DNA of 64,000 nucleotides from Tsukamurella sp. 1534 (GCF_000312385.1 NZ_HE997626.1:1332572-1396571); one strand, 5' to 3'. Positions 33,294-48,563 are shown, counted from the stretch's first letter. A program made the numbers and translations. The notes: a model not told the origin generated them from the sequence alone.

Positions 33294-33301
33294 CGCCCCT
33301 C

Positions 33302-33370
33302 TGTAGGGTCCCAGATTCCGTGGCGGAATCCCAAGCTACGTGGCGGACAGTTGGCGGATCCGCCAACTGT
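33302..33370. repeat. Putative Tn7-like right-end sequence: TnsB-site-like repeats and a 24-bp palindrome
   Basis: Starting at TGTAGGGTCCC just after dnaB, TGGCGGA occurs at 33321, 33341 and 33352. A perfect 24-bp palindrome occupies 33347-33370 (left arm ACAGTTGGCGGA), giving the same core in the opposite orientation. A further inverted repeat, GATTCCG-TGG-CGGAATC, lies at 33314-33330. Closely spaced copies of a short core between a TGT terminus and tnsA are expected of a Tn7-type right end. The matching left end was not found. Confidence 0.6.
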
Positions 33371-33428
33371 TTGGGACACGCCGGGGCACGTCCCCGCATC
33401 TGAGGGCGGAAGTGGCACCGTCAAGACC

Positions 33429-34163
33429 ATGTCGCCCGGCAGCTCCGCGGGGACCGCGGTGGAAGTATCGTTCCGCCGCGGTGAGGACCTCTGTGAGCGG
33501 ACCGTGGAGTGGAAGTCGGCCGCAATGGAGGACCTTCGCGAGGCAGCGCCGTGGCGCACATTTCGCTGGTATCGAGGGCAGAAACACTACTCGGGGTGGT
33601 ACTGGTCGAGCACTACCCGCGATCTGGTGATCTATGAGTCCCGCCTGGAGCTCGCTAACCTGATGCTCGCAGACTTCGACGATCGGGTTCGGGGCATCGT
33701 GGCCCAGCCTTTCCTTCTCGCGACTGAGGCCGATGGTGTCCTGCGGAGGCACGTTCCGGACTTCCTACTCGATACTGATTCCGGCCCGGTCGTCGTTGAC
33801 GTAAAGCCTGCTCGACGGCTTGATAATGATGATGTTGCAAGGGTTTTGAACTTGACTCGGGATGTCGTCGAGGCCAAGGGGTGGCGATACGAGGTCGCCA
33901 CCGAGCCGCCGCCGCGGAGGGCCGCGAATGTCAGATTCCTCGCTGGCTATCGGCGCGAGAGTGCAATCGTGCCTGACCATTGCGAGGCGGTTCAGGCGGT
34001 CGCTCAGGTGGGATTGACGATTGGTGCTCTCATCGATCGGATGCCAGATCGTCCTGACGCGAGCGTGCGAGCGGCGGTGCTGCACTTGATATGGCGGCGT
34101 CGGCTGCACGTCGACATTGACGCCGCAATCACTAGTCGCACTCAGATTTCGAGGGTCTTGTGA
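33429..34163 (+). CDS. tnsA: TnsA-like transposase endonuclease
   Basis: Cuts the 5' strands at the transposon ends with TnsB to allow cut-and-paste movement. From the ATG at 33429 it has 244 residues. The restriction-like core is visible as YESRLELANLMLADFD, IVAQPFLL, HVPDFLLDTDSG and VVVDVKPARR, giving the E...PD...DxK acid-Lys constellation at about residues 64, 110 and 123. The C-terminal part resembles the TnsA domain that contacts TnsC. The frame is open upstream to a TTG inside the 24-bp palindrome, so the start is uncertain. It overlaps tnsB by 4 nt (GTGA). Confidence 0.85.
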   Translation: MSPGSSAGTAVEVSFRRGEDLCERTVEWKSAAMEDLREAAPWRTFRWYRGQKHYSGWYWSSTTRDLVIYESRLELANLMLADFDDRVRGIVAQPFLLATEADGVLRRHVPDFLLDTDSGPVVVDVKPARRLDNDDVARVLNLTRDVVEAKGWRYEVATEPPPRRAANVRFLAGYRRESAIVPDHCEAVQAVAQVGLTIGALIDRMPDRPDASVRAAVLHLIWRRRLHVDIDAAITSRTQISRVL

Positions 34164-36307
34164 GTGGCGTTGAGCGGGTTGAGGTTGGCGGACGGTACAT
34201 GTACGACGGCGAGGCGTTCGAGATCGTGGAGCTCGCCACGGCTAAGGGCGTCGTCGATGTGCTGGGGAAAAGCGCTGCAGGGCAGTACATGCGAGTTGGC
34301 CTCGCGGAGTTGCTGTCTTCGGTCCGGGGTCGGGTCCTCCCGACCGGCCCTGGCGTTTCGAGCACTGATGCAACCGAGCCTGCAGGCGTCATCTTCGGTG
34401 AGTTGTCCGCGGCAGAGCTTCAGAAGGTGACGGAACGCGCGGGGCACGTACGCGAGATTCTTACCGGGTACAGATCTGGCAGCGCGGAGACTGCGAGCAA
34501 GGGGGAGCCCAGGCCGGAGTTTTCCGGCGACCGCCCGCTCACTGACCGCTACGCAGCGAAGGCGCGCGAACTGGGCGTCGGCTTGCGATCTGTGGAGCGG
34601 TGGGTGTCCAAGTTCCGCACTGAAGGGCCCGCAGGCCTGGTAGACGCGCGACGTACGAGAGAGGCGGAGCCCTTCCCGTCTGTCGATCGGCGGTGGTTAG
34701 ACACAGCTGTCGAAGTCATGGTTGAGCACGCCACCGAGTCGAAACCGTCCCGCACGATGGTGATGGCACGCGCGGAGGCACGGGTCTTGGCGCGATTCGG
34801 AGAAGGGGTCGTCGCCATCCCGTCTCGGACAAATGCTTTCCGCGTTCTCGAGTATCTGGAACAGCGCTATCCCACATTTCGACTGTCTGCCAAGCGAAAT
34901 CGCGACATCGCTGAGCGGCCAGAAGGCGTGTACGGCAAGCTCCGTCCAACTCGGCCTGGCGAGTACATGCTGATGGACACAACCAGGCTCGATGTCTTCG
35001 GGCTCGATCCTCTGACGCTGCGATGGGTGCAGGTCGAACTGACCGTCGCGATGGACTGGTACACCCGCTGCATCACCGGGTTGCGATTGACCCCGGTTTC
35101 CACGAAATCGGTTGATGTAGCGACCGTGATGTACGAGGTTTTCAGCCCACGTCCGGCCGGCGCGGACTGGCCGGAATACGCGGTGTGGCCAGCTCACGGA
35201 GTACCGCGGTCGGTACTTGTAGATGTCACCGCGGAGCGGCCAGCGGATGCGGCCGCTGGACCAGCTATTGTCCCTGAGACACTGGTCGTGGACCATGGCA
35301 AGGTCTACCTCTCGAACCACGTGATGAGTGTGTGCCAGCGCTTCGGGATTTCGGTGCAGCCAGCTCGGCTCCGAACCGGCCGCGACAAAGGGCCAGTTGA
35401 GCGGTTCTTTCGTACTATTCGTGAAGATCTCCTCCAGGCCTTGCCGGGGTACAAGGGACCTGATGTCCACTCCCGCGGCGAGGATCCTGAGGGCGGAGCG
35501 TTCTTCTACATCGACGAGCTCGAAAGCATCATCCGCGAGTGGGTTGCGCAGGTCTACCACCACCGCCAGCATTCGAGCCTGCTCGACCCGCGAGTTCCGG
35601 GCTTACGTATGTCGCCCGCCGCGATGTTCGAGCACGGTGTTTCTCGCGCCGGATACATTGAGGCGCCTCGCGATCCGGACCTGGCATTCGAGTTCCTCAA
35701 GCCGGTATGGCGGAAAATTCTTCACTACGGTGTCGAGATCGGAGGCCGCCGCTACAACGGAGACGGGCTCAACGGCTACCGTAACCTCGCGAGCCGGTTC
35801 ACCGGCGAGGCCAAGGGACGATGGCCGATCCACTTCGATCCCGACGACATCACCAAGGTGTACTTCCGGCGCCCAGATGAGCGGACCTGGCACACATTGG
35901 TGTGGGAGCACGCACCGTCGATCGATATGCCGTTCAGCGAGGATGCACTGCTCTACGCAAGGAAGCTAGCAGCATCGAAGTACCGATTCCCCAACGACCG
36001 CCTTGCGGTAGCTGACTTGTTGGAGCGGTGGAACATCGGCCTGGGCTCGACCCGAGTGGAACGGCGCATTGCATTGAGAATGTCACGCGAGACCGAACTG
36101 TCGCAGCGACCGCAGGGCGAAGCGCGTGTGGATCGACTGCCGTCGGTCGCCCGCGTGCTCGCTCCCGACCAGGACGAAAGCGATGTGCAAGCAGAGGACA
36201 CCGCGATTGATCGCGGTCTCGACTACGCCGGCGAGGAAGGTGACGACGATCGATTCGACCAGGAAAACATCGATGACTTCTACTCCGACGCGCTGGAGGA
36301 CGTATGA
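34160..36307 (+). CDS. tnsB: TnsB-like DDE transposase
   Basis: Binds the transposon ends and catalyses 3'-strand cleavage and joining. The 715-residue protein has an N-terminal Mu/Tn7-type DNA-binding region with HTH (KARELGVGLRSVERWVSKF) and an RNase H-like core. The catalytic triad can be placed at Asp ~272 (YMLMDTTRLDVF), Asp ~378 (TLVVDHGKVYLSN) and Glu ~414 (KGPVERFFRTIRED), followed by the usual YHHRQHSSL region. The C-terminal ~60 residues are acidic and probably interact with TnsC. The start and stop both overlap neighbouring genes by 4 nt. All catalytic residues are intact. Confidence 0.93.
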   Translation: MSGVERVEVGGRYMYDGEAFEIVELATAKGVVDVLGKSAAGQYMRVGLAELLSSVRGRVLPTGPGVSSTDATEPAGVIFGELSAAELQKVTERAGHVREILTGYRSGSAETASKGEPRPEFSGDRPLTDRYAAKARELGVGLRSVERWVSKFRTEGPAGLVDARRTREAEPFPSVDRRWLDTAVEVMVEHATESKPSRTMVMARAEARVLARFGEGVVAIPSRTNAFRVLEYLEQRYPTFRLSAKRNRDIAERPEGVYGKLRPTRPGEYMLMDTTRLDVFGLDPLTLRWVQVELTVAMDWYTRCITGLRLTPVSTKSVDVATVMYEVFSPRPAGADWPEYAVWPAHGVPRSVLVDVTAERPADAAAGPAIVPETLVVDHGKVYLSNHVMSVCQRFGISVQPARLRTGRDKGPVERFFRTIREDLLQALPGYKGPDVHSRGEDPEGGAFFYIDELESIIREWVAQVYHHRQHSSLLDPRVPGLRMSPAAMFEHGVSRAGYIEAPRDPDLAFEFLKPVWRKILHYGVEIGGRRYNGDGLNGYRNLASRFTGEAKGRWPIHFDPDDITKVYFRRPDERTWHTLVWEHAPSIDMPFSEDALLYARKLAASKYRFPNDRLAVADLLERWNIGLGSTRVERRIALRMSRETELSQRPQGEARVDRLPSVARVLAPDQDESDVQAEDTAIDRGLDYAGEEGDDDRFDQENIDDFYSDALEDV

Positions 36308-37407
36308 CCGAAACCGCCGCGACACTCGACAATCTGACCCTCGCCCGAAAGGAAGGGTGGCAGAAGTTCGTCAACACCCCCGCACGTGTTCCACCGGAGG
36401 CGTTGAACCGCGATGAACTCGACAGACTGACCGACAAGGAGCGCACCGACTACGACCGTGAGCGCCGCGAGTGGCACGCGAACCTCGGGCCCCTCAAGAC
36501 CAGACAGCTGGTCGAGGTGCACGAAAACCTCTGGGATGTCATCGACTCCAACGCCCAGGACGGAGACAAACCGAAAGGCGCCGTTGCGATCGACGCAGTA
36601 CCCGGACTAGGGAAGACCACCGCGGTATTGAGCTTCGCCCGCGCGTTCCACCGCCGCGAAGTAGCCGAGAACGGCACTACGACCGAGGAAGGTCATGAAC
36701 GGTGGCCGGTGTGCCGGGTGGGACTGACCGGCAACACTGGCCTACGCGAGTTCAACCGGGCGATGCTCGCGTTCTACGCCCACCCAGGCGGCCGCCGCGG
36801 CAACGCCGCCGACTTCGCCCACCGAGCCCTGGACTGCGTGCTGGCATGCGAAACGAAGATCCTCATCGTCGATGATCTGCACTTCCTGCGGCTGCAGTCC
36901 ACCTCCGGTGTCGAGGTCAGCAACCACTTCAAGTACATCGCCAACGAGTTCCCGTTGACGGTGATCTTCGCTGGCGTCGGTTTGGAGGCGCGGGGACTGT
37001 TCTCCGAGGGCAGTAGTGACCGAGATGCTCTTCTCGCGCAGACCGGCCGGCGTACAACGCGGCTGACAATGGATCCTTTCGGTGTCACCAATGATGCTGG
37101 GCGCCGGGCATGGCGTCAGACGCTCAAGGCGATCGAGCAGCGGGTGGTTCTGGCCGAAAAGTATCCGGGCATGATCGCCGACGATCTCTCTGACTACCTG
37201 TATGCCCGGTGTACCGGCCAGATCGGCTCACTGATGACCCTGATCAACCGGGGATGTCAGCGCGCGGTCCGGACTGGGTATGAGCGCCTCGACGAGGAAC
37301 TGCTCGATCGGGTCAAGATCGACGAGGCATCGGAGAAGGCTCGCGAAGAACTGCGCCTGGCATTCGACAACGGCTGCCTGAGAACTCGCATCGGCAGGGC
37401 CGGATGA
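36304..37407 (+). CDS. tnsC: TnsC-like AAA+ ATPase
   Basis: Transposition regulator that links target-site proteins to the transposase. The 367-residue protein has Walker A in AVPGLGKTTAVLSFA (residue ~100) and Walker B in ILIVDDLHFLRLQ (residue ~187). Downstream are FAGVGLEARGLF (sensor-like Asn replaced) and the TniB/TnsC-type lid with YARCTGQIGSLMTLINRG. Motifs are intact, so it is probably active. ATGA overlaps link it to tnsB and tnsD. Confidence 0.93.
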   Translation: MTETAATLDNLTLARKEGWQKFVNTPARVPPEALNRDELDRLTDKERTDYDRERREWHANLGPLKTRQLVEVHENLWDVIDSNAQDGDKPKGAVAIDAVPGLGKTTAVLSFARAFHRREVAENGTTTEEGHERWPVCRVGLTGNTGLREFNRAMLAFYAHPGGRRGNAADFAHRALDCVLACETKILIVDDLHFLRLQSTSGVEVSNHFKYIANEFPLTVIFAGVGLEARGLFSEGSSDRDALLAQTGRRTTRLTMDPFGVTNDAGRRAWRQTLKAIEQRVVLAEKYPGMIADDLSDYLYARCTGQIGSLMTLINRGCQRAVRTGYERLDEELLDRVKIDEASEKAREELRLAFDNGCLRTRIGRAG

Positions 37408-39998
37408 CAGTGCCACGTTCGCTTCCCTTCAGGGTGGACCCGGTGCCGGGCGAAGCGATCGATTCCTGGCTCGAAGCGATCGCCTTCCGCGCCGACTCAG
37501 CGTGGGGAGACCTTCTCGACGCAGTCGACATACCTGCGCCTGCAGGTCTTGGGTACCCGCCCTGGACGATCGCACTCAGCGAGGCCGAAGTAGCCAGCCT
37601 GTGTGCCGCCACGGGCAGCGACGTCGAATTTTCGATGATGACCCTCACCCGGTTCGACGGGACCGCGGTGCGCATCGACTCGCAGTCGCGGAGTTTGCGC
37701 CGCGAAGTGGCATGGACCCGCCGCACCGGATCCCGCTTCTGCCCGCACTGCCTCCGAAGCAACGGCGGCCGATGGAAGCTCGAATGGCGACTCGGCTGGG
37801 CGTTTGCCTGCACCGACCATCGTTGTTTGCTGTCCGACGAATGCCCTCGCTGCCATAGAATTCCACGCCGCCGCCCGCTCCCGGGCCACTGCACCCCGAT
37901 CCCCGGCCGATGTGCATCGCCGGCGCAGGAAGGAGGCATTGGACGGGAGGCCCGACGGTGCGGCGCCGATCTCACGGCTGCCGAGGTCCTCGACCTTCCT
38001 GGTGCGCACCCCGCTCTTCGGGCACAGGCCCTCATCGATCGAATCATCGACGACGGAGTCGTGCGGTTCGGGGTCTACGCGCGCCTTCCACAGCCTGCGG
38101 CTTCTGTGCTTGCCGACATTCGCGCCATCGGCGGCCGAGTACTGTCCTACGCCACCGACGAAGAGCTCTTAGCGCGAGTGGGACCCGAACTGGCGGTTGA
38201 GTACCGGGCAGTCGATGAACAAGGTGGTGCACGATCCGGACAAGTCCGACAGAGCCGCACGAAGCCGGCCCTCGAAGCGCCAGCGAGAGCCGTCACAGCT
38301 GCGATTGGCGTCAGTGCCGCGATCGACGTTCTGCACTGCTCGGACCTCGCAGCCGCAGCTGATCGCCTGCGATGGTTAGTGACCTCGGCCCGGGAGACAG
38401 GCCTCAGTGTTCAACCGACGAACATCGGCTGGGGGACGCGAATCTCACCAATCCTGACCGGTGTCCAGCTCGCCGCGCTATCCCCGATGCTCGACCCGTC
38501 CGACCAACTTCGCTACCGCACTCACTCCGACCTTCCCACCTTGGTGACCAGTGGGCGCGCAGAGCTACTAGCGCGTCACACGCCGACGCAATTTTGGGCC
38601 GGAATCAGTTTGCCCTTCACGGTCCCGGCGGCGAGGCGCACAATGATGCGCCTGGCATTGTCTGCGGCCTTACAGTTGGTGGGCACTCGGTTGAATCTGA
38701 CGGCCGCTGGTCAGCAGGTCGGAGGTCACCTGGCTGGCCATGCCCTATCCCGATTCCTACAGATTCTGGAGTCCGATCAACACTGGAGCGATGTGTGCGC
38801 GGGTCTGACACGCGTTGCCGATTACGTTGTCGAGCGCGGCGTACCGATCGACTATCAGCGCCGACGGGCACTCGATTGCACCGGTTTGCTTCCGGACGAT
38901 GAGTGGAGGCAGATCTGCCACCGCACCGGAACGCCGTCACAGGGCGGCTCCGCCCGGGCGGCTGTTGTTCGGGCGTTTCTTCGCGAGGAGCTCACAGGCG
39001 TCCCCACGGTTGACGGGTCCGCAGACTTGCTCGCTAAGATCGCCGCGTTTCCCCGCGATCTGACACCCGGCCTTCGGGACGAGCTGATCAACCACGCACG
39101 GGTGTTCTTGGACGCCGCGGGCATCGATGAGGAACCAATTGCCTGGGAGCCGCCAATTGAGCTCCTCGCTGGTCTCGACCTCCCTGGCCCGCGACCAGGA
39201 CTGATCGACCGTGATCGCCTTCGAAAGCTCATCCGAGAACGCGACCTTCCCATCGGCGCCGCCGCCCGCGACCTCGGCACCACTGGCGAGGCGGTTCGCC
39301 TTGAGCTGATCGTCAATCCCCTCCCTGTCGATACCGGCCGCCGGAAGTACGCCAGCGCTCGAACGCAGCTCCCCCCGGAGGCTTTGACCCAGCTCTATCA
39401 TCACGATCGCCTCACCTTGCGACAGATCGCTAACCGTATTGGAGTCAGTCGTCAGGTGATCCGTCGACTCCTCACCGAATACGAGATCCCGACGATCCCC
39501 GCTACCGAGCGCGCGAAGATCATCATCGACCGCGACTGGCTCTACCAGCAATATGTCACCAACAGCAGGGCCCTCCCTGACATAGCCCGAGAACTGGGCA
39601 TGAGCACGGCGAACCTGGCTCGGTGGGCGAACAAACACGAGATTCCGATGAGACCCCGCGGCGGACCCAGTCACACCGCGGCCCTCGACGCCGCGGCCGC
39701 CGCGAAAACGGTGCCGCCGATCTTGCGCACAGCTGTTGCGGCCCAGGGCGGGCGCGACCGACTGGAACGGGCGAAAGCAGCATCGCGATTCCCCACGCTG
39801 ACCGAGGCTGCACACGCGTTAGGAACCAGCCAGGCAACCCTCACGAACCAGTTTCTCCGGCTCGAACGCGAGACCGGCGGAGCTCTGTTCGACCGTGCCG
39901 AGCGCAATCGCCCTATGACCCTGACCGCCCACGGACGGAGGGTGATCGACGCCATTCGAAAGCTGGACGGAACTGCTAGCGAGTCTCCCGGTGGGTAA
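37404..39998 (+). CDS. tnsD: TnsD/TniQ-like target-selection protein with multiple C-terminal HTH units
   Basis: Predicted site-specific DNA-binding selector of the Tn7-like element. The 864-residue protein begins with a TniQ domain containing the zinc motif FCPHC...CTDHRCLLSDECPRC (residues ~112-150). The C-terminal third carries at least four helix-turn-helix-like units: near 605 (PIGAAARDLGTTGEAV), 665 (TLRQIANRIGVSRQVIRRLL), 715 (ALPDIARELGMSTANLARWA) and 798 (TLTEAAHALGTSQATLTNQF, LysR-like, then GGALFDRAERN). This is longer than Tn7 TnsD (508 residues) and fits recognition of an extended site, probably within dnaB. The last gene of the operon. Confidence 0.88.
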   Translation: MTVPRSLPFRVDPVPGEAIDSWLEAIAFRADSAWGDLLDAVDIPAPAGLGYPPWTIALSEAEVASLCAATGSDVEFSMMTLTRFDGTAVRIDSQSRSLRREVAWTRRTGSRFCPHCLRSNGGRWKLEWRLGWAFACTDHRCLLSDECPRCHRIPRRRPLPGHCTPIPGRCASPAQEGGIGREARRCGADLTAAEVLDLPGAHPALRAQALIDRIIDDGVVRFGVYARLPQPAASVLADIRAIGGRVLSYATDEELLARVGPELAVEYRAVDEQGGARSGQVRQSRTKPALEAPARAVTAAIGVSAAIDVLHCSDLAAAADRLRWLVTSARETGLSVQPTNIGWGTRISPILTGVQLAALSPMLDPSDQLRYRTHSDLPTLVTSGRAELLARHTPTQFWAGISLPFTVPAARRTMMRLALSAALQLVGTRLNLTAAGQQVGGHLAGHALSRFLQILESDQHWSDVCAGLTRVADYVVERGVPIDYQRRRALDCTGLLPDDEWRQICHRTGTPSQGGSARAAVVRAFLREELTGVPTVDGSADLLAKIAAFPRDLTPGLRDELINHARVFLDAAGIDEEPIAWEPPIELLAGLDLPGPRPGLIDRDRLRKLIRERDLPIGAAARDLGTTGEAVRLELIVNPLPVDTGRRKYASARTQLPPEALTQLYHHDRLTLRQIANRIGVSRQVIRRLLTEYEIPTIPATERAKIIIDRDWLYQQYVTNSRALPDIARELGMSTANLARWANKHEIPMRPRGGPSHTAALDAAAAAKTVPPILRTAVAAQGGRDRLERAKAASRFPTLTEAAHALGTSQATLTNQFLRLERETGGALFDRAERNRPMTLTAHGRRVIDAIRKLDGTASESPGG

Positions 39999-40377
39999 AA
40001 CGGTGCACCAAGTTCCTGAACCTGGCCTCTCAGGTGGTGAAGACGTGGTTCGGAATGCCCTAGCCTCCACGCACGTCGTCGCGTCGGTAGGGTCAGGAGC
40101 GAACCGCGATTCCACGTCCCGGAACCTGTCATGGTGAGGCTCTAGAATAGAGACAGCTAAGCCCGGCTCGTTTGCCGACGAACCGGGCTCAGCTGAACAA
40201 CCGAATCACCACTCCGAGGGTTCGCCCCTCGATACCGTGACCGTTGCGAATGTCTTTGGATGACGCCTCCGATGGTAGACGGTGTGCGCGGGTTCGCCAA
40301 ACACCGGAACGCTGGTGTGGGCGAGCGATGCGGACCTTGGCGTGGTGGCTCATCCACACTGCCTTGAGGAGGCACCG
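39999..40377. other. Non-coding gap between tnsD and the TGT-like gene
   Basis: No convincing gene is seen on either strand. It holds the hairpin listed at 40155-40194 and, at its end, the GAGGAGG ribosome-binding site of the next gene. No copy of the TGGCGGA transposon-end repeats was found here, so the element does not end after tnsD. Confidence 0.6.
40155..40194 (+). terminator. Hairpin terminator candidate downstream of tnsD
   Basis: AGCTAAGCCCGG-TCGT and ACGA-CCGGGCTCAGCT form a stem of about 17 bp with two mismatches and a 6-nt loop, 157 bp after the tnsD stop. Confidence 0.6.
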
Positions 40378-41535
40378 TTGACCAACGACAGTCGCGACTC
40401 TGATCGCACAACCGATACCACCAGCACTGAACGGGCTGGAGGTGCCCGGCCCATCCAGGTCGGGCAGCACCGGCTCGAGGGCATGTCGACGGACCTGTTC
40501 GTTCAGGTCCCGACGACCTTGATCGACCCGACTCGCGCGCTGATCGCGTCGGAAGGTGTCGGCGCGGTCTACTCCGTGCCGTGGCAGTCCCGGACCCACC
40601 GCTCCGCGGTGGCGAGGACCGCGGCGGATCAGACCCGCAAGAAGTGCCCCGAAGCAGCGTTGCTGCTCGACGCGAACCTCTACAGCGGCCGGCAGCGGAA
40701 GGTGGCGACGGCGGAGCCGACCCGCGACTGGATCACCGTGCAACGTAGCGCGGGCCTGACGTGGGCATTGACCGATTCCGGCTATGTGGCCAAGGGCGAC
40801 ACCGCTGGGCTGCGGACCACCCTGAAGACGGCGGCCCGCTTCGGTGGACAGGTGATTGCGGCGCTGCCGATCGCGAGCTGGTGGCTTTCGCACGCCGCCG
40901 ATTCGCTCCGGTCTGAGATCAACGCGCACGGCATCCCCGTGGCGTTGATGGTCGAAGACACCGACGACCCGTTCGACCGGACCAACGTCGTGACCGGGCT
41001 GGTGCACGTCCTCACCGCAGATGTCCCGGTGCTGCTCCTGCGCAGTGACACGGCGGGGTTGGGGGCGCTGGCGTACGGCGCCGCAGGCGCGGCGATGGGG
41101 TCATCGACCACCTACCGGCACATCTACCCCGACATCGGCGGGGGCGGCACCAGCGGGTCGGTGTCGTTCATCCTCCCGGAGCTTCTCGCGTACACGTCGC
41201 TGACCGCGTTCGAGCGGCATTACCTCAAGGACAAGTCCCACGCCGCGTGGTGCTGCGACTGCGCACTCTGCGGTGGACGGGACCTGACCTGGATCCGCAC
41301 GGCTGACATCCCGAAGGCAGCAGCGTTCTCGCATTCGGTCTCCGCGGTCGCGATGCTCGGTCGCGGTTTGGCCACCGCTATCGCCGCCCACAACGGCCCG
41401 CAGGCGTGGACGGCGATGTGCGAGGCCGCCCACGAGAGCAACATCGAGATCGAGAAGCTCACCGGCGGGGACTGGAAGCGCAAACGCGCCCTGTCCGCCT
41501 GGATCGGCGCTACGCCGGAGCCGGCTGCGGCGTGA
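40378..41535 (+). CDS. Divergent tRNA-guanine transglycosylase (TGT)-like protein
   Basis: A 385-residue protein from a TTG with GAGGAGG 5 nt upstream. It reads like a TIM barrel: LLLDANLYSG, WALTDSGYVAKGD, VIAALPIASWW, VALMVEDTDDPF and VPVLLLRSD. TDSG matches the TGT substrate-binding TDSGGF motif. CDCALC followed ~20 residues later by His resembles the TGT zinc site (CxCxxC...H), and MLGRGLATAIAAHN mimics the conserved C-terminal helix. The usual nucleophile segment (FDCVxPTR) appears as MGSSTTYR, without Asp. The fold assignment is an inference by eye. It could belong to a DpdA-like or other base-exchange/binding system, or be a catalytically inactive relative. It overlaps the convergent next gene by 26 nt. 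Confidence 0.55.
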   Translation: MTNDSRDSDRTTDTTSTERAGGARPIQVGQHRLEGMSTDLFVQVPTTLIDPTRALIASEGVGAVYSVPWQSRTHRSAVARTAADQTRKKCPEAALLLDANLYSGRQRKVATAEPTRDWITVQRSAGLTWALTDSGYVAKGDTAGLRTTLKTAARFGGQVIAALPIASWWLSHAADSLRSEINAHGIPVALMVEDTDDPFDRTNVVTGLVHVLTADVPVLLLRSDTAGLGALAYGAAGAAMGSSTTYRHIYPDIGGGGTSGSVSFILPELLAYTSLTAFERHYLKDKSHAAWCCDCALCGGRDLTWIRTADIPKAAAFSHSVSAVAMLGRGLATAIAAHNGPQAWTAMCEAAHESNIEIEKLTGGDWKRKRALSAWIGATPEPAAA

Positions 41536-42133
41536 TCGGCACCCCTGTCGCGAGGGCGTGAGCGAATAGCCGCTCCTCCCAGTACCGCACCGCGACGATC
41601 CGCGGAGGATCGGCAACCTTCGATCCCCGCACCAGTAGTTCCTCGCCGGCGTGAGAGGTATGCACCACGCTCACGTCGGCGAGGTCCGCCGCCGTCAAGC
41701 TCAGCGCCGTGGGCCGCCGCTCGGTCAGCACCACGGTCTCGCCGAACCCGCGAAGCTCACTGGCGACATACAGGGCCCTCTTCCACTGCCCGGTGGCGAC
41801 GAACCCGACGATGCTCAACGGCGCCGCCGGCGGCGCCCCCGCGCCCTCCGCCGGGCACATCTCCCACAGCTCGAGGACCTGCGCGTCGAGCATCGGTCCC
41901 GCCCCGGACGACATCCGTTCGGCGACGGTCGACGACCATCGGACCACCGGATACCCGCGAAGCCCCGACAGTTCGGTCCGCGGCAACACCGACACCGAGC
42001 TATCGAGGACGAGCTCCGCAGCCGCGACCACGGCCGCGTCGACCAGATCCGCAGACCGGACGACAGGGACCTCGAACAGCGGGATCTGACCCGCCTCTGC
42101 GCGCTCCTGCCGGGTACGTCGCCGCGCCGTCAC
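41510..42133 (-). CDS. Hypothetical protein, partner of the AbrB-like gene
   Basis: A 207-residue soluble protein with a basic N-terminus (TARRRTRQERAEAGQ) and mixed alpha/beta content; no known family is recognised. A central segment (SIVGFVATGQWKRALYVASEL then VVLTERRP) alternates strand and helix like a Rossmann-type fold. Its GTG start overlaps the stop of the double-AbrB gene (GTGA), so the two are co-translated. Its 3' end overlaps the convergent TGT-like gene, so the three may form one functional module. Confidence 0.6.
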   Translation of the reverse strand: MTARRRTRQERAEAGQIPLFEVPVVRSADLVDAAVVAAAELVLDSSVSVLPRTELSGLRGYPVVRWSSTVAERMSSGAGPMLDAQVLELWEMCPAEGAGAPPAAPLSIVGFVATGQWKRALYVASELRGFGETVVLTERRPTALSLTAADLADVSVVHTSHAGEELLVRGSKVADPPRIVAVRYWEERLFAHALATGVPITPQPAPA

Positions 42134-42501
42134 TGGTCTTCCTGTTCCACGGGGGTGGGCTCCGGGGCGATGACCCGTGACGCATCGAACAGGTGAATGC
42201 GGTCCTCCAGGGCCAGGAACGCCACGACGCTCCCTATGTCCAGGCCGGCCGAGTCCAGGACCGCCGCCGGCAACGCGATCTGTCGTGACGTCCGCAGCCG
42301 CCGCGGGCGATCCGGGTTACTTCGTACGGACGGCTTCTTTCCGCGCGGGCCGCGAGTGGGAACGATCTCGACGATCCTCTGGCCGGCGACGACACCGATC
42401 CGGACCCACGAAGGCTGCCGCACTCCGGCCACCTTCGCCACCTTCGCCGGGATGGTGATCCGGCGGAAGCTGTCGATCGTCCGGGGACCCGTGGGAAGCA
42501 T
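42130..42501 (-). CDS. Tandem AbrB/SpoVT-type DNA-binding protein
   Basis: About 123 residues from the ATG at 42501. Two swapped-hairpin-like units are visible: SFRRITIPAKVAKVAGV with WVRIGVVAGQRIVEIVPT, and SRQIALPAAVLDSAGLDIGS with VVAFLALEDRIHLF. The linker is basic (GKKPSVRSNPDRPRRLR). Both units have the AbrB pattern R-x-I-x-(I/L)-P. A GTG at 42537 would add 12 residues but would run over the inverted repeat at 42502-42519, a likely operator. It probably regulates itself and the downstream gene. Confidence 0.65.
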   Translation of the reverse strand: MLPTGPRTIDSFRRITIPAKVAKVAGVRQPSWVRIGVVAGQRIVEIVPTRGPRGKKPSVRSNPDRPRRLRTSRQIALPAAVLDSAGLDIGSVVAFLALEDRIHLFDASRVIAPEPTPVEQEDQ

Positions 42502-42519
42502 ACTGCTGATTTTAGCAGT
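42502..42519. promoter_or_regulatory. Inverted repeat at the start of the AbrB-like gene
   Basis: ACTGCT-N6-AGCAGT is a perfect repeat that directly abuts the preferred ATG of the double-AbrB gene. It is a candidate autoregulatory operator. Confidence 0.5.
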
Positions 42520-42585
42520 CAAAGACCGAACAGACACTGGTACTGTGGATTACAGCGCATGATCGTCGTGCCGACCGCTGTCCCG

Positions 42586-42717
42586 CTAAGGCACGGAAAC
42601 GCCGTCGGAAGAGACGGCATCGAGGGCTTCGAGGACGGCGCGGAGGAACTCGGTCGCGGTGAGGGGGATGCCGCGTTCGCGGAGCTGTTGCTCTAGCTGC
42701 TGCTCGATGTGGTCCAC
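42586..42717 (-). CDS. Possible small protein (43 residues)
   Basis: A GTG opens a 43-codon frame with good composition for coding: an amphipathic Gln/Glu-rich helix (HIEQQLEQQLRERGIPL) followed by TATEFLRAVLEALDAV. In-frame coding-like sequence continues upstream for about 20 codons to a stop, with no better start. No ribosome-binding site is obvious. It could be a remnant of a larger gene. Confidence 0.35.
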   Translation of the reverse strand: MDHIEQQLEQQLRERGIPLTATEFLRAVLEALDAVSSDGVSVP

Positions 42718-42806: not shown

Positions 42807-43160
42807 CTAGCAGCACGTGGCCAGGACGGCCCGGAGCGCTTCGAGGGAGTCGGGTTCGGCGCGGTAGAAGACGTTGATCCCCCGCCGCTCGGAGCTGACG
42901 AGGCCGGCCTTCTTGAGCTGGCTCAGGTGGTGACTGACGGTCGCCGACGACAGGCCCACGGTGTCGGCGAGATCGCCCGTGCTGACGTCGCCTGGACGTG
43001 CGGCCATGAGGAGCGAGATCAGCTGGATCCGGGCCGGGTCGGCGAGCGCCTTGAGGCGCAGGGCGAGCTCAAGCGCCGCCGCCTCGTCCATCACGCCGGC
43101 AGCGAGCGGAGCGCAGCAGATCGGGGCGCTGATGTCGACGACGGGGAGCGTCTTGGGCAT
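42807..43160 (-). CDS. arsR: ArsR/SmtB family metalloid-responsive repressor
   Basis: A 117-residue winged-helix repressor (ALADPARIQLISLL, LADTVGLSSATVSHHLSQLKKAGLV). A Cys pair at residues 15-16 (APICCAP) matches the position of the N-terminal Cys pair known for corynebacterial As(III) sensors. A second pair ends the protein (ATCC). The recognition helix has no Cys. It is divergent from the ArsI/CadI-like gene with a palindrome between them, and probably represses both. Confidence 0.88.
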   Translation of the reverse strand: MPKTLPVVDISAPICCAPLAAGVMDEAAALELALRLKALADPARIQLISLLMAARPGDVSTGDLADTVGLSSATVSHHLSQLKKAGLVSSERRGINVFYRAEPDSLEALRAVLATCC

Positions 43161-43180
43161 GACTCCAATCTACCCACTCG

Positions 43181-43194
43181 TTGACATATGTCAA
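43181..43194. promoter_or_regulatory. Palindrome between arsR and arsI, candidate ArsR operator
   Basis: TTGACATATGTCAA is a perfect 14-bp palindrome 20 bp upstream of arsR, and TTGACA could itself be a -35 element. Confidence 0.6.
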
Positions 43195-43256
43195 AACGTG
43201 GTCTAGAACTGAACCCGCACACCAATTAGATGTATGTCGAAGCCTCGGAGGTTCTC

Positions 43257-43724
43257 ATGTCCCGCGTCCAGCTCGCCCTCAACGTCGACGACCTCGATCA
43301 GTCGATCGCGTTCTACACCAAGCTGTTCGGCACCGGACCGGCGAAGGTCAAGCCCGGCTACGCCAACTTCGCCGTCGCCGACCCGGCGCTCAAGCTGGTC
43401 CTGCTGGAGAACCCCGGCCAGGGCGGCAGCATCAACCACCTCGGCGTCGAGGTCGACTCCAGCGAGAAGGTGCACGCCGAGATCGCCCGCCTGACCGAGG
43501 AGCAGCTGTTCACCGAGGAGGAGATCGGCGCCACCTGTTGCTTCGCCACCCAGGACAAGGTCTGGGTCACCGCCCCCGACGCCGAACGCTGGGAGGTCTA
43601 CACCGTCCTGGCTGACGCCGAGACCTTCAACGGAGAGCCCGTTGCCTCGAGTACTGCCGCCGACGCCGACGCCGACGCGACGCCGGCGGCGTGCTGCACC
43701 CCTACCGCGGCGAACTGCTGCTGA
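43257..43724 (+). CDS. arsI: ArsI/CadI-type vicinal-oxygen-chelate protein (C-As lyase or cadmium-induced protein)
   Basis: A 155-residue protein nearly identical in wording to mycobacterial CadI and to ArsI lyases: MSRVQLALNVDDLDQSIAFY, KPGYANFAVADPALKLVL, NHLGVEVDSS, the vicinal Cys pair in GATCCFATQDKVWVTAPD and WEVYTVLAD. ArsI uses Fe(II) and O2 to break the C-As bond of methyl- and aryl-arsenicals, with the Cys pair binding substrate. The C-terminus adds AACCTP and NCC, extra metalloid-binding Cys. GGAGG lies 6 nt before the ATG. The ars context favours ArsI. Confidence 0.85.
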   Translation: MSRVQLALNVDDLDQSIAFYTKLFGTGPAKVKPGYANFAVADPALKLVLLENPGQGGSINHLGVEVDSSEKVHAEIARLTEEQLFTEEEIGATCCFATQDKVWVTAPDAERWEVYTVLADAETFNGEPVASSTAADADADATPAACCTPTAANCC

Positions 43725-44060
43725 CCGACGCAGCCACGGAGTAGTCGCCCGAGAACCGAGCAGACCGACGACGGCGCCCTTCGAGTTGCGTCGCCGATCG
43801 CAACTACAACCGGTAGTGCTGATGCGACACGCTCGACACAAGTGCTTGTGCTCCGCAAAGGTGTCAGGGTGCTCGAATAAGATCGAACACAGGTGCAGAA
43901 GGCGCCGGGACCCCTCGGCCGCTTGAAGCGGCGAAGAGGTCCCGGGTCCGATCTGTGAGAGGATTCGTACCCTAATCTCCGTCGCTTCCCGTCACAACTC
44001 GACGCGCTACCAGCTTGTCCCGGTCTGCCCCTGGACAAGACGCGCAGAAGAGGCTCAACG
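43725..44060. other. Non-coding gap with a hairpin
   Basis: No gene is supported. A strong complex hairpin lies at about 43906-43944 (CGGGACC-CCTC paired with GAGG-TCCCG, with an inner CCGCTT/AAGCGG stem); it may terminate transcription from arsI, although it is 180 bp downstream. Confidence 0.5.
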
Positions 44061-44306
44061 ATGAGCAATCAGAATCGACGCAGCGTCGTTCCGAACCCCG
44101 GCGGTGGCTGGGATGTCACGAAGCCCGGTGGCAGTCGTGCCAGTGCCCACACCGACACCCAGGTGGAGGCCATCTCCCGCGCTCGGGAGATCGTCACCAA
44201 CGCCGGGGGAGGTGAGGTGCAGATCCACGGGCGCGACGGTCGGATCCGCGATTCCGACACCATCGCCCCTGGCAACGACCCGTTTCCGCCGCGCGACAAG
44301 CGGTAG
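44061..44306 (+). CDS. DUF2188 family small protein
   Basis: An 81-residue protein with the DUF2188 pattern: VVPNPGGGWDVTKPGGSRAS, HTDTQVEAISRAREI and EVQIHGRDGRIRDSDTI, ending in NDPFPPRDKR. The family is a widespread small alpha/beta protein of unknown function. It stands alone between a hairpin and a perfect 15-bp-stem terminator, and does not appear to belong to the ars operons on either side. Confidence 0.85.
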   Translation: MSNQNRRSVVPNPGGGWDVTKPGGSRASAHTDTQVEAISRAREIVTNAGGGEVQIHGRDGRIRDSDTIAPGNDPFPPRDKR

Positions 44307-44325
44307 CCACGGCAGCTGATACGCA

Positions 44326-44360
44326 CGAGGCGCCTCTCCGGAATTCGGAGAGGCGCCTCG
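44326..44360 (+). terminator. Terminator after the DUF2188 gene
   Basis: A perfect 15-bp stem (CGAGGCGCCTCTCCG and its complement) with a 5-nt loop, 20 bp after the stop. Confidence 0.85.
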
Positions 44361-44416
44361 TCGTGGAGCCGCGGCTCGGCCTTGCCATCCGAATCGATAT
44401 CTGTCAATATCGATGT

Positions 44417-44791
44417 GTGTCGAATTCGATTCCGTTGACCGACGTGACCGTGCGGTGTTCACCGCTGGTCCGCGAGCCCCTGTCGGAGGGGCAGTCCGTC
44501 GACCTCGCGGCGGTGTTCAAGGCCCTGGCTGACCCGATCCGCCTGCGCCTGTTCAGCCTGATCGCCAGCCACGAGGGCGGCGAGGCCTGCGTCTGCGACA
44601 TCTCCCCGGCGGTCGACGTCTCGCAACCCACGATCTCGCACCACCTCAAGGTCCTCAAGACTGCCGGCCTGCTCGAGTCCGAGCGCCGCGCCTCGTGGGT
44701 GTACTACCGCGTCATCCCCGAAGTCCTGTCCTCGCTCGCCGGGATCCTGCAGTCCGGCGAACCCGCCACCTCGTTGGAGGTTCTCTCGTGA
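44417..44791 (+). CDS. arsR: ArsR family repressor of the acr3-arsC operon
   Basis: A 124-residue repressor. EACVCDIS at about residues 55-62 carries the CxC As(III) motif of classical ArsR (ELCVCDL), followed by the recognition helix VDVSQPTISHHLKVLKTAGL. The GTG at 44417 has no ribosome-binding site but lies in a repeat of TATCGAT sequences (44395-44415) that may be the operator, so translation may be leaderless. It overlaps acr3 by 4 nt (GTGA), making an arsR-acr3-arsC-arsC order. Confidence 0.88.
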   Translation: MSNSIPLTDVTVRCSPLVREPLSEGQSVDLAAVFKALADPIRLRLFSLIASHEGGEACVCDISPAVDVSQPTISHHLKVLKTAGLLESERRASWVYYRVIPEVLSSLAGILQSGEPATSLEVLS

Positions 44792-45903
44792 CCAGCCCCG
44801 CCCCGACCACCGAGCATCAGCCGGTCGTCGGCAAGCTCTCCACCCTCGACCGGTTCCTACCGGTGTGGATCGGCGTCGCGATGGTCGCCGGACTGCTGCT
44901 CGGCCGGATGATCCCGGGCCTGAACACCGCGCTGGAGAAGATCCAGGTCGACGGCGTCTCCCTGCCGATCGCACTCGGGCTGCTGATCATGATGTACCCG
45001 GTGCTGGCGAAGGTCCGCTACGACCGCCTCGACACCGTCACCGGCGACCGCAAGCTCCTCCTGGGCTCGCTGCTGCTGAACTGGGTCCTCGGACCGGCGC
45101 TGATGTTCGCCCTCGCGTGGATCTTCCTGCCCGACCTGCCCGAATACCGGACCGGGCTGATCCTCGTCGGCCTGGCCCGGTGCATCGCGATGGTGATCAT
45201 CTGGAACGACCTCGCCTGCGGCGACCGGGAGGCCGCCGCGGTCCTCGTGGCGCTGAACTCGGTGTTCCAGGTGATCATGTGCGCCGTCCTCGGCTGGTTC
45301 TACCTCTCGATCCTGCCCGGCTGGCTCGGCCTCGAACAGACCACCATCAGCACCTCGCCGTGGCAGATCGCCAAGTCCGTGCTGATCTTCCTGGGCATCC
45401 CGCTGCTCGCCGGCTACCTCTCCCGCCGGATCGGGGAGAAGACCAAGGGCCGCGACTGGTACGAGGCGAAGTTCCTCCCGCGCATCGGACCGTGGGCCCT
45501 GTACGGGCTGCTGTTCACCATCGTCATCCTCTTCGCCCTGCAGGGCGAGCAGATCACCTCCCGCCCCTGGGACGTCGCCCGCATCGCCCTGCCGCTGCTG
45601 GCGTACTTCGCCGTGATGTGGGGTGGTGGGTACCTCCTCGGCGCCGCCATGGGCCTGGGCTACGAGCGCACCACCACCCTCGCGTTCACCGCCGCGGGCA
45701 ACAACTTCGAGCTCGCCATCGCCGTCGCGATCGCCACCTACGGCGCCACCTCCGGGCAGGCCCTGGCCGGGGTGGTCGGACCGCTCATCGAGGTACCCGT
45801 CCTGGTGGCCCTGGTCTATGTCTCGCTGGCCCTGCGCAAGCGCTTCCCCCTCACCACATCGTCTACCGCCGCTAGCGCGGATCCGTCCAGGAGTGTGAAC
45901 TGA
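44788..45903 (+). CDS. acr3: Arsenite efflux permease Acr3
   Basis: Exports As(OH)3 from the cytosol using the proton gradient. The 371-residue protein has ten predicted helices, of normal length for Acr3. [18 protein letters not shown] includes the essential Cys of helix 4, and [17 protein letters not shown] marks helix 9. GGAGG lies 7 nt before the GTG. It is translationally coupled to arsR upstream and arsC downstream (TGATG). Confidence 0.94.
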
Positions 45904-46328
45904 TGCCCGACAACGAAACCCGCACGCCGAGCGTGTTGTTCGTGTGCGTGAAGAACGGCGGCAAGTCCCAGATGGCCGCCGGACTGATGCGCAAGACCGC
46001 CGGCGATGCCGTCGAGGTCCACTCGGCCGGCACCAAGCCCGGAAGCGCGGTCAACGGCCTGTCCGCCGAATCCCTGGCCGAGATCGGCGTCGACATCACC
46101 GGCGAGACCCCCAAGCCCATCGACCCCGAGCTGCTCGCCCGGGTGGACCTGGTGGTCACGCTCGGCCGCGAAGCCGTCGTCGACACCCCGGACGGCGTCG
46201 CGCTGGTCAACTGGGACACCGACGAGCCGTCGGAGCGGGGCATCGACGGGATCGAACGGATGCGCCTCGTGCGCGACGACATCGCCGCCCGCGTCACCGC
46301 GCTGGCAGCCGAACTCACCACCCGGTAG
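45903..46328 (+). CDS. arsC: ArsC-type arsenate reductase/LMW-phosphatase-fold protein with a CX5K loop
   Basis: A 141-residue LMW-PTPase-fold protein. The active-site loop reads [14 protein letters not shown], so the Arg of the CX5R signature is Lys. [12 protein letters not shown] and [10 protein letters not shown] follow. Related actinobacterial single-Cys ArsC proteins with VKNGGKSQ loops reduce arsenate with mycothiol and mycoredoxin, and the family assignment rests on that resemblance. It overlaps acr3 by one base. It feeds arsenite to the pump. Confidence 0.85.
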
Positions 46329-46370
46329 CGCCCCAGCAGGCCGGGAAGCCCGAGAAGCGGGAGAAGTCGG

Positions 46371-47036
46371 ATGAACGCCAACGCCTCTACCGAGTCGGCC
46401 GGAACACCAGAACTGCTGATGCCCCAGGCCCTGCTGGCGCGGACCGCGGAGCGGCTCGCCGCCCAGTACCGCGGGATCGTCTCCGAGCAGACAGTCGAAC
46501 GGGTCGTCTTCGAGTCCTACACCGCGCTGCGGCGCACCGCCCGCATCCACACCCACCTGGTGACTCTCGCCGGCCGGTTCGCCGCCGAGCGCCTCTCCGC
46601 CCTGGCGCAGTCGACGGGTGCGAGCACCAAGACCGTGCCCGAGGTGCTGTTCATCTGCGTCCACAACGCGGGCCGCTCGCAGATGGCCGCCGCGCTCCTG
46701 ACGCACCACGCCGCCGGGGCGGTACACGTGCGCTCCGCCGGATCGCTTCCTGCCGCGGTGATCAACCCGATCGTCGAGCAGGCCATGACCGAGGTCGGAC
46801 TCGACCTGGCCGCCGAGTTCCCCAAGCCTCTCACCGACGACGCGGTCGCGGCCGCGGACGTCGTGATCTCCATGGGCTGCGGCGACGCCTGCCCGGTCTA
46901 CCCGGGCAAGCGGTACCTGGACTGGCAGGTCGCCGACCCCGACAACCACCCCATCGAGACCGTCCGCCTGATCCGCGACGACCTCGACCGCCGCGTCAAA
47001 GCCCTCCTCACCGAGCTCCATCCCGCCACCACCTGA
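46371..47036 (+). CDS. arsC: ArsC-type arsenate reductase with N-terminal three-helix domain
   Basis: A 221-residue protein. The first ~80 residues form a helical domain (LLARTAERLAAQYRGIVSEQ, VERVVFESYTAL) common in actinobacterial ArsC. The LMW-PTPase domain follows, with a standard CX5R loop in FICVHNAGRSQMAAALL and VISMGCGDACPVYPGKRY carrying two more Cys. It lies 42 bp after the first arsC with GGGAGAAG before the ATG. Two reductases of different loop type in one operon may use different thiols. Confidence 0.88.
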   Translation: MNANASTESAGTPELLMPQALLARTAERLAAQYRGIVSEQTVERVVFESYTALRRTARIHTHLVTLAGRFAAERLSALAQSTGASTKTVPEVLFICVHNAGRSQMAAALLTHHAAGAVHVRSAGSLPAAVINPIVEQAMTEVGLDLAAEFPKPLTDDAVAAADVVISMGCGDACPVYPGKRYLDWQVADPDNHPIETVRLIRDDLDRRVKALLTELHPATT

Positions 47037-47141
47037 CCCAACCCGTGATCGACCTGCTCGACACTCCTGATCGCAGGCTGTCGGCACCGCTTGTGCCTGC
47101 CACACCTCATTCGCCTGTTCTTGGAAGGGAACCGACACCCC

Positions 47142-48563
47142 ATGTCTGCACGCAAGATCATCGCCATCGGCGGATCGGACGCCGGGATCTCCGCCGCCCT
47201 GCGGGCCCGCGAACTCGACCCCACCAGTGAGGTCACCGTGGTCGTCGCCGACGCCTACCCGAACTTCTCCATCTGCGGCATCCCGTACTACGTCTCCGGC
47301 GAGGTCACCCACTGGAGCAACCTCGCCCACCGCACCGCCGCCGACCTCGCCGCCACCGGCATGACCGTGCACACCGACACCAGAGCGACCGCCATCGACG
47401 CGGACGGGCACCGCCTGACCGTCACCGGCCCCGACGGCGCCGCCCGGGACCTCGACTACGACACCCTCGTCATCGGTACCGGCGCCGTCTCCGTGCGGCC
47501 GCCGATCACCGGCCTCGACCACCTCGGCCCGGACGACGGCGTGCACCTGCTGCACTCGATGGGCGACACCTTCGCCGTGATGAACACCCTCACCACGAAG
47601 GATCCCAAGACCGCGATCATCATCGGCGCCGGCTACATCGGCCTCGAAATGGCCGAAGGTCTCACCGCCCGCGGCATCACCGTCACCCAGATCGAAGCCC
47701 TCCCCGAGGTGCTCCCCACCGTCGAACCCGAACTCGGCGCCCTCGTCCACGACGAACTGGTCCGCAACCGGGTCGACGTCCGCACCCACACCCTGGTCAC
47801 CGCCGTCGACCGCACCGACACCGGCGCCCTGACCGTCACCACCAGCAGCGACGGCCAGACCGACCACCTCACCGCCGATCTCGTGCTCGTCGTCGTGGGC
47901 GTGCGCCCCGACACCACTCTCGCCGCCGCAGCCGGCGCGCATCTCGGCATCAAGAACACCATCGCCGTCGACGAGCAGATGCGCACCAACCTGCCCGACG
48001 TCTTCGCCGCCGGCGACGCCGTGCACACCCACCACCGCCAGCTCGGCATCACCTGGCTCCCACTCGGCACCACCGCGCACAAGCAGGGCCGCGTCGCCGG
48101 CGAGAACGCCCTCGGCGGCACCGCCCGCTACACCGGCTCCCTAGGCACCCAAGTCGTGAAGATCTTCGACCTCGTCGCCGCCCGCACCGGCCTCAAAGCC
48201 ACCGAAGCCCTCGCCGCCGCCCGCGGCTGGGTACCGGTGTCGACGACCTCCACACCGGACGATCACAAGGCCTACTACCCGGGCGCCACCACCATCAGCA
48301 TCCGGATCACCGGCGACCAGAACACCGGCGCACTGCTCGGCGCCCAGCTCATCGGGCACCGCACGGCCGAGATCTCCAAGCGCGTCGACACCTACGCCAC
48401 CGCCCTGCACCACGGAATGACCGTCGACGCCCTCTCCGAGCTCGACCTGTCCTACACCCCGCCCCTCGGGTCCCCCTGGGACGCCGTGCAGGTCGCCGCC
48501 CAGAACTGGGTCCGCGAACACCAGCTGCACCACCAGCGCAGCGCCCTTAGCCTGAACAGGTGA
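47142..48563 (+). CDS. FAD/NAD(P)-dependent oxidoreductase, CoA-disulfide-reductase/NADH-oxidase-like
   Basis: A 473-residue pyridine nucleotide-disulfide oxidoreductase. FAD-binding GGSDAGISAALRARELDP, redox-active Cys in FSICGIPYYVSGE, NAD-binding IIIGAGYIGLEMAEGL and DVFAAGDAVHTHH are visible, with a C-terminal dimerisation domain. Single-Cys enzymes of this type reduce CoA disulfide or persulfides, or O2. In ars operons such flavoproteins are frequent but of debated role. GGAAGG precedes the ATG. It overlaps the acetyltransferase gene by 4 nt. Confidence 0.87.
   Translation: MSARKIIAIGGSDAGISAALRARELDPTSEVTVVVADAYPNFSICGIPYYVSGEVTHWSNLAHRTAADLAATGMTVHTDTRATAIDADGHRLTVTGPDGAARDLDYDTLVIGTGAVSVRPPITGLDHLGPDDGVHLLHSMGDTFAVMNTLTTKDPKTAIIIGAGYIGLEMAEGLTARGITVTQIEALPEVLPTVEPELGALVHDELVRNRVDVRTHTLVTAVDRTDTGALTVTTSSDGQTDHLTADLVLVVVGVRPDTTLAAAAGAHLGIKNTIAVDEQMRTNLPDVFAAGDAVHTHHRQLGITWLPLGTTAHKQGRVAGENALGGTARYTGSLGTQVVKIFDLVAARTGLKATEALAAARGWVPVSTTSTPDDHKAYYPGATTISIRITGDQNTGALLGAQLIGHRTAEISKRVDTYATALHHGMTVDALSELDLSYTPPLGSPWDAVQVAAQNWVREHQLHHQRSALSLNR

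Follow-up and report, generated by a model that had tools for sequence, protein, structure and literature searches.

The window analysed here is a stretch of 64,000 nucleotides from Tsukamurella sp. 1534 that carries the transposition genes of a Tn7-like element, namely tnsA (33351-34163, start uncertain), tnsB (34160-36307), tnsC (36304-37407) and tnsD/tniQ (37404-39998), all on the plus strand. The right end of the element (33301-33370) has a terminus reading TGT at 33301, followed by repeats at 33309-33370 with GTGGCGGA. It begins 8 bp past the stop codon of dnaB, and in related species that lack the element DNA homology ends at the right-end position. An insertion 8 bp after dnaB (33293-33370) suggests dnaB as a candidate attachment gene in Tsukamurella. 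For the Tn7-like setting proposed in an initial annotation of this DNA, the tns genes and the right end were found, but the left end was not located. The TniQ (TnsD) protein has several C-terminal helix-turn-helix domains, the last of which matches the LysR-type HTH_1 domain (residues 797-845). Between tniQ and the cargo lies a strong hairpin (40154-40195) with an 18-bp terminator-like stem (z -6.3), which probably separates the tns operon from the cargo genes.

Three cargo genes are found at the positions given by the initial annotation, with the motifs reading as written there. The first, TGTL (40378-41535, plus strand), encodes 385 residues with the predicted fold of tRNA-guanine transglycosylases (TGTs) and without the TGT nucleophile. 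It begins with a TTG codon, to which the RefSeq start of the Tsukamurella tyrosinosolvens copy corresponds, and its reading frame is open from a GTG at 40282 upstream. P207 (41510-42133, minus strand), a conserved convergent partner of 207 residues with a weak PD-(D/E)XK-like fold, overlaps TGTL tail to tail by 26 bp (41510-41535). Upstream of P207, and overlapping it by 4 bp, a gene on the minus strand (42130-42537) encodes an AbrB/MazE-type protein of 135 residues. The TGTL motifs are TDSG (residues 132-135), MGSSTTYR (240-247) and the zinc-type set C293-x-C295-x-x-C298...H319; because homologues at 20-48% identity retain them, comparison of the sequences marks the three genes as clearly coding. 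No match of TGTL was accepted in Pfam or NCBIfam (both at E 1), in PHROGs or in PADLOC, and the family is missing from all four collections. Searches of the PDB by sequence, with the single sequence and with a profile, returned nothing usable, and no relatives were found in phage records or IMG/VR. Matches of the TGTL profile to Lon proteases were taken as chance.

The structure of TGTL, predicted by AlphaFold2 with ten relatives (pTM 0.80, mean pLDDT 76.5), shows a TGT-type (beta/alpha)8 barrel, in line with the TIM barrel that the initial annotation had expected. Among the VIA-align matches listed against the PDB, 50 of 50 are tRNA-guanine transglycosylases; the best is archaeosine TGT (1iq8; Z 17.8, rmsd 3.7, ~306 aligned), and the Zymomonas TGT reaches a Z of about 17. 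In Foldseek the first rank goes to mouse TGT (E 4.5e-6) and the fourth to DpdA; a search of BFVD returned no more than weak TIM-barrel matches, some phage queuine tRNA-ribosyltransferases among them. The likeness to bacterial and archaeosine TGTs thus extends over about 300 residues (Z 17-18) and includes the C-terminal CxCxxC...H set and, by strand order, an Asp where beta3 ends. In contrast to TGTs, TGTL has no match to the Pfam TGT family (PF01702), no nucleophile Asp after beta8 and no significant profile similarity, and 12 of 18 TGTL hosts lack a canonical TGT. Because hhalign found no significant similarity between the TGTL profile and bacterial TGTs (E 0.014, probability 3%), homology between TGTL and TGTs rests on the fold.

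In 26 of 26 diverse members of the TGTL family G62, D98, P164, W169, P198, C293, C295, C298, H319 and W344 are invariant, which upholds, at the level of sequence, the CxCxxC...H feature first read from the window alone; D224 and R247 (25 members each), R222 (24) and H248 (23) are near-invariant. The loss of the nucleophile, also reported initially, extends to nearly the whole family: the position of TGT Asp280 (FDCVxPTR) reads AMGSSTTYR in TGTL, which is non-acidic, and A/S-hydrophobic-G in nearly all members. The TDSG sequence is present as described, but its proposed equivalence to the TDSGG motif of TGTs is probably wrong, since a weak profile alignment together with strand order places D133 (ALTDSGY) at TGT Asp156 and D98 (LLLDANLY, end of beta3) at Asp102, the base-binding residue of TDSGG. 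Members of a Streptomyces-type branch also lack D133, with TPTG in place of TDSG. By strand, the polar residues are Asp98 (beta3; codon 40669-40671), Arg222/Asp224 (beta7; D224 codon 41047-41049) and Arg247-His248 (after beta8; codons 41116-41121), and from conservation and strand order these charged residues look like an active site unlike that of TGTs.

A nucleophile missing from nearly all members, and D133 lost as well in the Streptomyces-type branch, would also fit a non-catalytic TGT-fold protein that serves, together with P207, as a sensor or scaffold by binding tRNA, DNA or a nucleotide. QTRT2, a non-catalytic subunit of the eukaryotic TGT, sets the precedent, as it keeps the barrel and zinc site with its catalytic residues replaced (PMC6165067), and TGTL shares with it the TGT barrel, the zinc site and altered catalytic residues. 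However, QTRT2 is partnered by a catalytic TGT, whereas the partner of TGTL is the unrelated P207, and TGTL has a conserved polar residue set of its own. Even among highly divergent members D98, R222, D224, R247 and H248 are near-invariant at the barrel-strand ends, a set that a pure scaffold would hardly be expected to keep. We consider a QTRT2-like role a serious rival, though not the probable reading.

P207 is a conserved companion of TGTL. The two genes converge at 24 of 30 distinct loci; in an independent collection of named genomes (Tsukamurella, Nocardia, Arthrobacter, Mycobacterium, Mycolicibacterium, Gordonia and Jiangella), P207 is downstream and convergent in 16/16 intact loci. The 3' ends of the two genes overlap in 21 of the 24 convergent loci, by 4 to 86 bp, compared with 19 of 78 background convergent pairs (24%) in the same loci; because a script of ours made the background gene calls, and because the loci are related to one another, the nominal p-value is indicative only. 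A search with P207 alone turned up new TGTL neighbours, and the link between the two therefore holds both ways. The expectation that the genes would co-occur elsewhere is thus borne out for TGTL and P207, with the AbrB gene joining them in five lineages. P207 was not found at six of the 30 TGTL loci (L014, L078, L080, L081, L086 and L125), at one of which (L080) the gene overlapping TGTL is unrelated to P207, and it was seen in three of eight further TGTL loci held out from the analysis (flanks of about 1.5 kb).

For P207, too, nothing acceptable came from Pfam, NCBIfam, PHROGs or PADLOC; a weak AbiEii match (E 0.024) was taken as chance. Its structure model (pTM 0.76) gave nothing significant with Foldseek, and the top ten VIA-align rows are mostly PD-(D/E)XK-fold proteins at weak scores, from Z 7.5 down to about 5. 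The matches include MmcB-like 3dnx, YaeQ, SfsA, Can2 and XisH, all of which we take to be proteins of this fold. The likeness is weak (Z under 8), and, unlike PD-(D/E)XK-fold proteins, P207 lacks the catalytic motif: the alignment of its relatives contains no conserved residues of the D...(D/E)xK type. The reading of P207 as an active nuclease was rejected on that ground. Relatives of P207 also occur without TGTL (L045-L067 and L090-L102) as a conserved solo chromosomal gene, apparently in Pseudonocardiaceae, next to genes for NAD-binding and FAD-type oxidase proteins.

The AbrB gene is a less constant part. It matches the swapped-hairpin, DNA-binding domain of Pfam PF04014 at 32 bits (cut-off 24.7) in two MazE/AbrB stretches, which confirms the double-AbrB protein described at the outset. 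Its start is uncertain and may be 42537, an ATG at 42501 or the still later start given by RefSeq. An inverted repeat does exist at the start of the gene as reported (ACTGCT-6-AGCAGT, about 42502-42519), but its arms are just 6 nt and could be at chance level. AbrB-like genes lie directly upstream of P207 in five lineages (the window, L115, L074, L089 and L070); for the tandem form, Pfam supports the copies of the window and of Arthrobacter ISL-48, those in L074/L075 and L089 are apparent by eye, and Mycolicibacterium wolinskyi (L070) has a single short AbrB with a weak PrlF match. This recurrence, the overlap of AbrB with the start of P207 in the window, and the classic order of an AbrB/MazE gene followed by a toxin gene would suit a self-contained toxin-antitoxin pair, with AbrB as antitoxin, P207 as toxin and TGTL as a third, modulating part. 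However, most loci have TGTL and P207 without AbrB, and the P207 relatives of Pseudonocardiaceae are stable solo genes beside housekeeping genes, which is unusual for a toxin. We regard such a pair as unlikely.

A different regulator accompanies TGTL elsewhere. At 10 of 30 distinct loci the same-strand gene immediately upstream of TGTL is RmrA-like; at the loci inspected, it overlaps or abuts TGTL. A profile of our own found such a gene at three of the eight held-out loci. The protein combines an XRE helix-turn-helix with an M78 (ImmA/IrrE) peptidase in a single fusion (Pfam: M78 and HTH), and PADLOC models of RmrA matched it in five tested loci at E 1e-50 to 1e-60. The association of RmrA with TGTL is new here; the initial annotation did not see it because the copy in the window, like those at 20 of the 30 distinct loci, has no adjacent RmrA, and the host genome of the window holds only distant, unlinked RmrA-like relatives.

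RmrA is the protease-domain antitoxin of RosmerTA, where it pairs with 'different toxins (RmrTs)', and a version from a Gordonia phage depolarises membranes and gives phage protection (PMC10440598). The M78 domain is typical of RosmerTA, and such systems block phages (PMC12322248); the published RmrT toxins are diverse (PMC10440598, PMC12322248), and three-part systems that include XRE-COG2856 proteins were put forward as a general idea in 2009 (PMC2701414). With an RmrA-like gene directly upstream in at least 10 lineages, as in RosmerTA, TGTL occupies the RmrT toxin position. The module differs from RosmerTA in that neither TGTL nor P207 matched the PADLOC models of RmrT or any other PADLOC model, in the extra convergent P207 and sometimes AbrB, and, for the copy in the window, in the lack of RmrA.

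Further defence genes occur near some TGTL loci, including GajA and GajB (Gabija), a PglX-BrxC-PglZ-BrxD cluster (BREX) and DpdE- and DrmD-like helicases. At some loci only, the module was observed within defence islands. Together with RmrA, these neighbours support the suggested link to defence more than could be seen from the window. The Jiangella endophytica locus (L123; L073:1822-5163, minus strand) encodes a full-length DpdE-like helicase (E 8e-227) two genes away from TGTL, and a DUF2726 helicase is encoded between the two.

This helicase, the fourth Foldseek rank of DpdA, the resemblance of P207 to nuclease folds and the TGT homologues reported in BREX-related systems (PMC12839542) all favour an enzyme akin to DpdA, the DNA preQ0 insertase, which would mark self DNA by inserting a 7-deazaguanine base, P207 being the matching restriction component; TGTL shares a TGT fold in a defence setting with DpdA and with these systems. 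However, the hosts of TGTL mostly lack preQ0 synthesis. A true QueC is present in only 4 of 18 hosts and a canonical TGT in only 6 of 18, the nucleophile position is empty, a PD...(D/E)xK motif is missing from P207, and no relatives of DpdB or DpdC were noticed in the loci read. Nor are HerA, PglZ, DUF6079 and GNAT, the components of the BREX-related BRC systems with TGT (PMC12839542), the fixed partners of TGTL. The comparison with DpdA drawn in the initial annotation is therefore not supported: preQ0-dependent chemistry is unlikely because most hosts (14 of 18) lack QueC, and the self-mark reading as a whole is very unlikely. Modification of DNA or tRNA by TGTL is a conjecture.

Arsenic-resistance genes lie close to the module in three separate lineages, those of the window (42807-48563), of M. 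wolinskyi (L070) and of a streptomycete-like genome (L163/L077). As ars genes flank the module in all three, it could in principle be a metal or arsenic resistance function belonging to the surrounding ars/mer islands. However, ars genes are not near most other loci, the RmrA, Gabija and BREX neighbours point elsewhere, and islands collect unrelated cargo, so that a role in resistance is hardly probable at all.

The distribution of TGTL is that of a mobile gene. Copies are 100% identical between Tsukamurella species, compared with about 90% identity in the dnaB region, and broken copies exist. Two TGTL loci adjoin tRNA-Leu(CAG) near fhaA-type genes, and one lies on an Arthrobacter plasmid. Relatives are patchy across Actinomycetes, in 14 of 301 genomes of a family sample and 23 of 395 of a class sample. 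A second type of TGTL-P207 pair is identical in T. spumae, Mycobacterium sp. D16Q14, Gordonia polyisoprenivorans and T. conjunctivitidis (L119, L120, L121 and L122), and its identity across genera therefore indicates recent inter-genus transfer; in T. spumae it adjoins tRNA-Leu and fhaA. The module is real, conserved and mobile, and its parts, at most four (RmrA, TGTL, P207 and AbrB), vary by locus.

The host genome also contains TGT domains of another kind. One (G000:C1:1512322-1513500; L131:1-2712, plus strand) is a canonical TGT domain (PF01702, E 3e-115) C-terminal to an MMPL-family exporter (E 5e-33) in one frame, and long open frames suggest the same fusion in most Tsukamurella species. 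This TGT has kept TDSGG and FDCV and lost the CxCxxC zinc cysteines. A second TGT domain (E 2e-71; G000:C1:772529-773629; L155:1489-4101, minus strand) is joined to an MFS exporter (E 6e-19) and no longer has the FDCV nucleophile segment. Fusion of a TGT to a transporter is unexpected.

Our preferred reading, on which we judge the case evenly balanced, is that TGTL is the effector, unprecedented in its TGT fold and in the toxin position, of a mobile actinobacterial RosmerTA-like module with a putative defence or toxin-antitoxin function. RmrA, a repressor of the XRE type with a protease, would keep TGTL in check, and in the window, which has no RmrA, the AbrB-P207 operon would restrain it instead. 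Phage infection would lift the block, and TGTL would then use its TGT-type pocket to act on a nucleotide or on nucleic acid. More speculatively, N-glycosidic chemistry (base removal or exchange) by relocated residues may persist, because Asp98, Arg222/Asp224 and Arg247-His248 are near-invariant despite the lost beta8 nucleophile, and damage by TGTL to tRNA, DNA or nucleotides might stop growth. P207 probably serves as a binding partner or as a second regulator, and the overlapping convergent genes would also permit antisense control. The most specific form of this proposal, a TGT-fold enzyme with relocated catalytic residues as the base-removing or base-exchanging toxin of an RmrA-controlled anti-phage module, with a degenerate nuclease-fold convergent partner, is tentative, and its likelihood falls well short of even.

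RosmerTA toxins are diverse and mostly without known action, and a partner gene that overlaps tail to tail is an unusual arrangement among toxin-antitoxin-like systems. TGTs are structurally very well studied, so that the substrate and mechanism of TGTL are directly testable. A TGT-fold toxin, if true, would extend base-exchange folds from RNA and DNA modification to toxin and effector roles.
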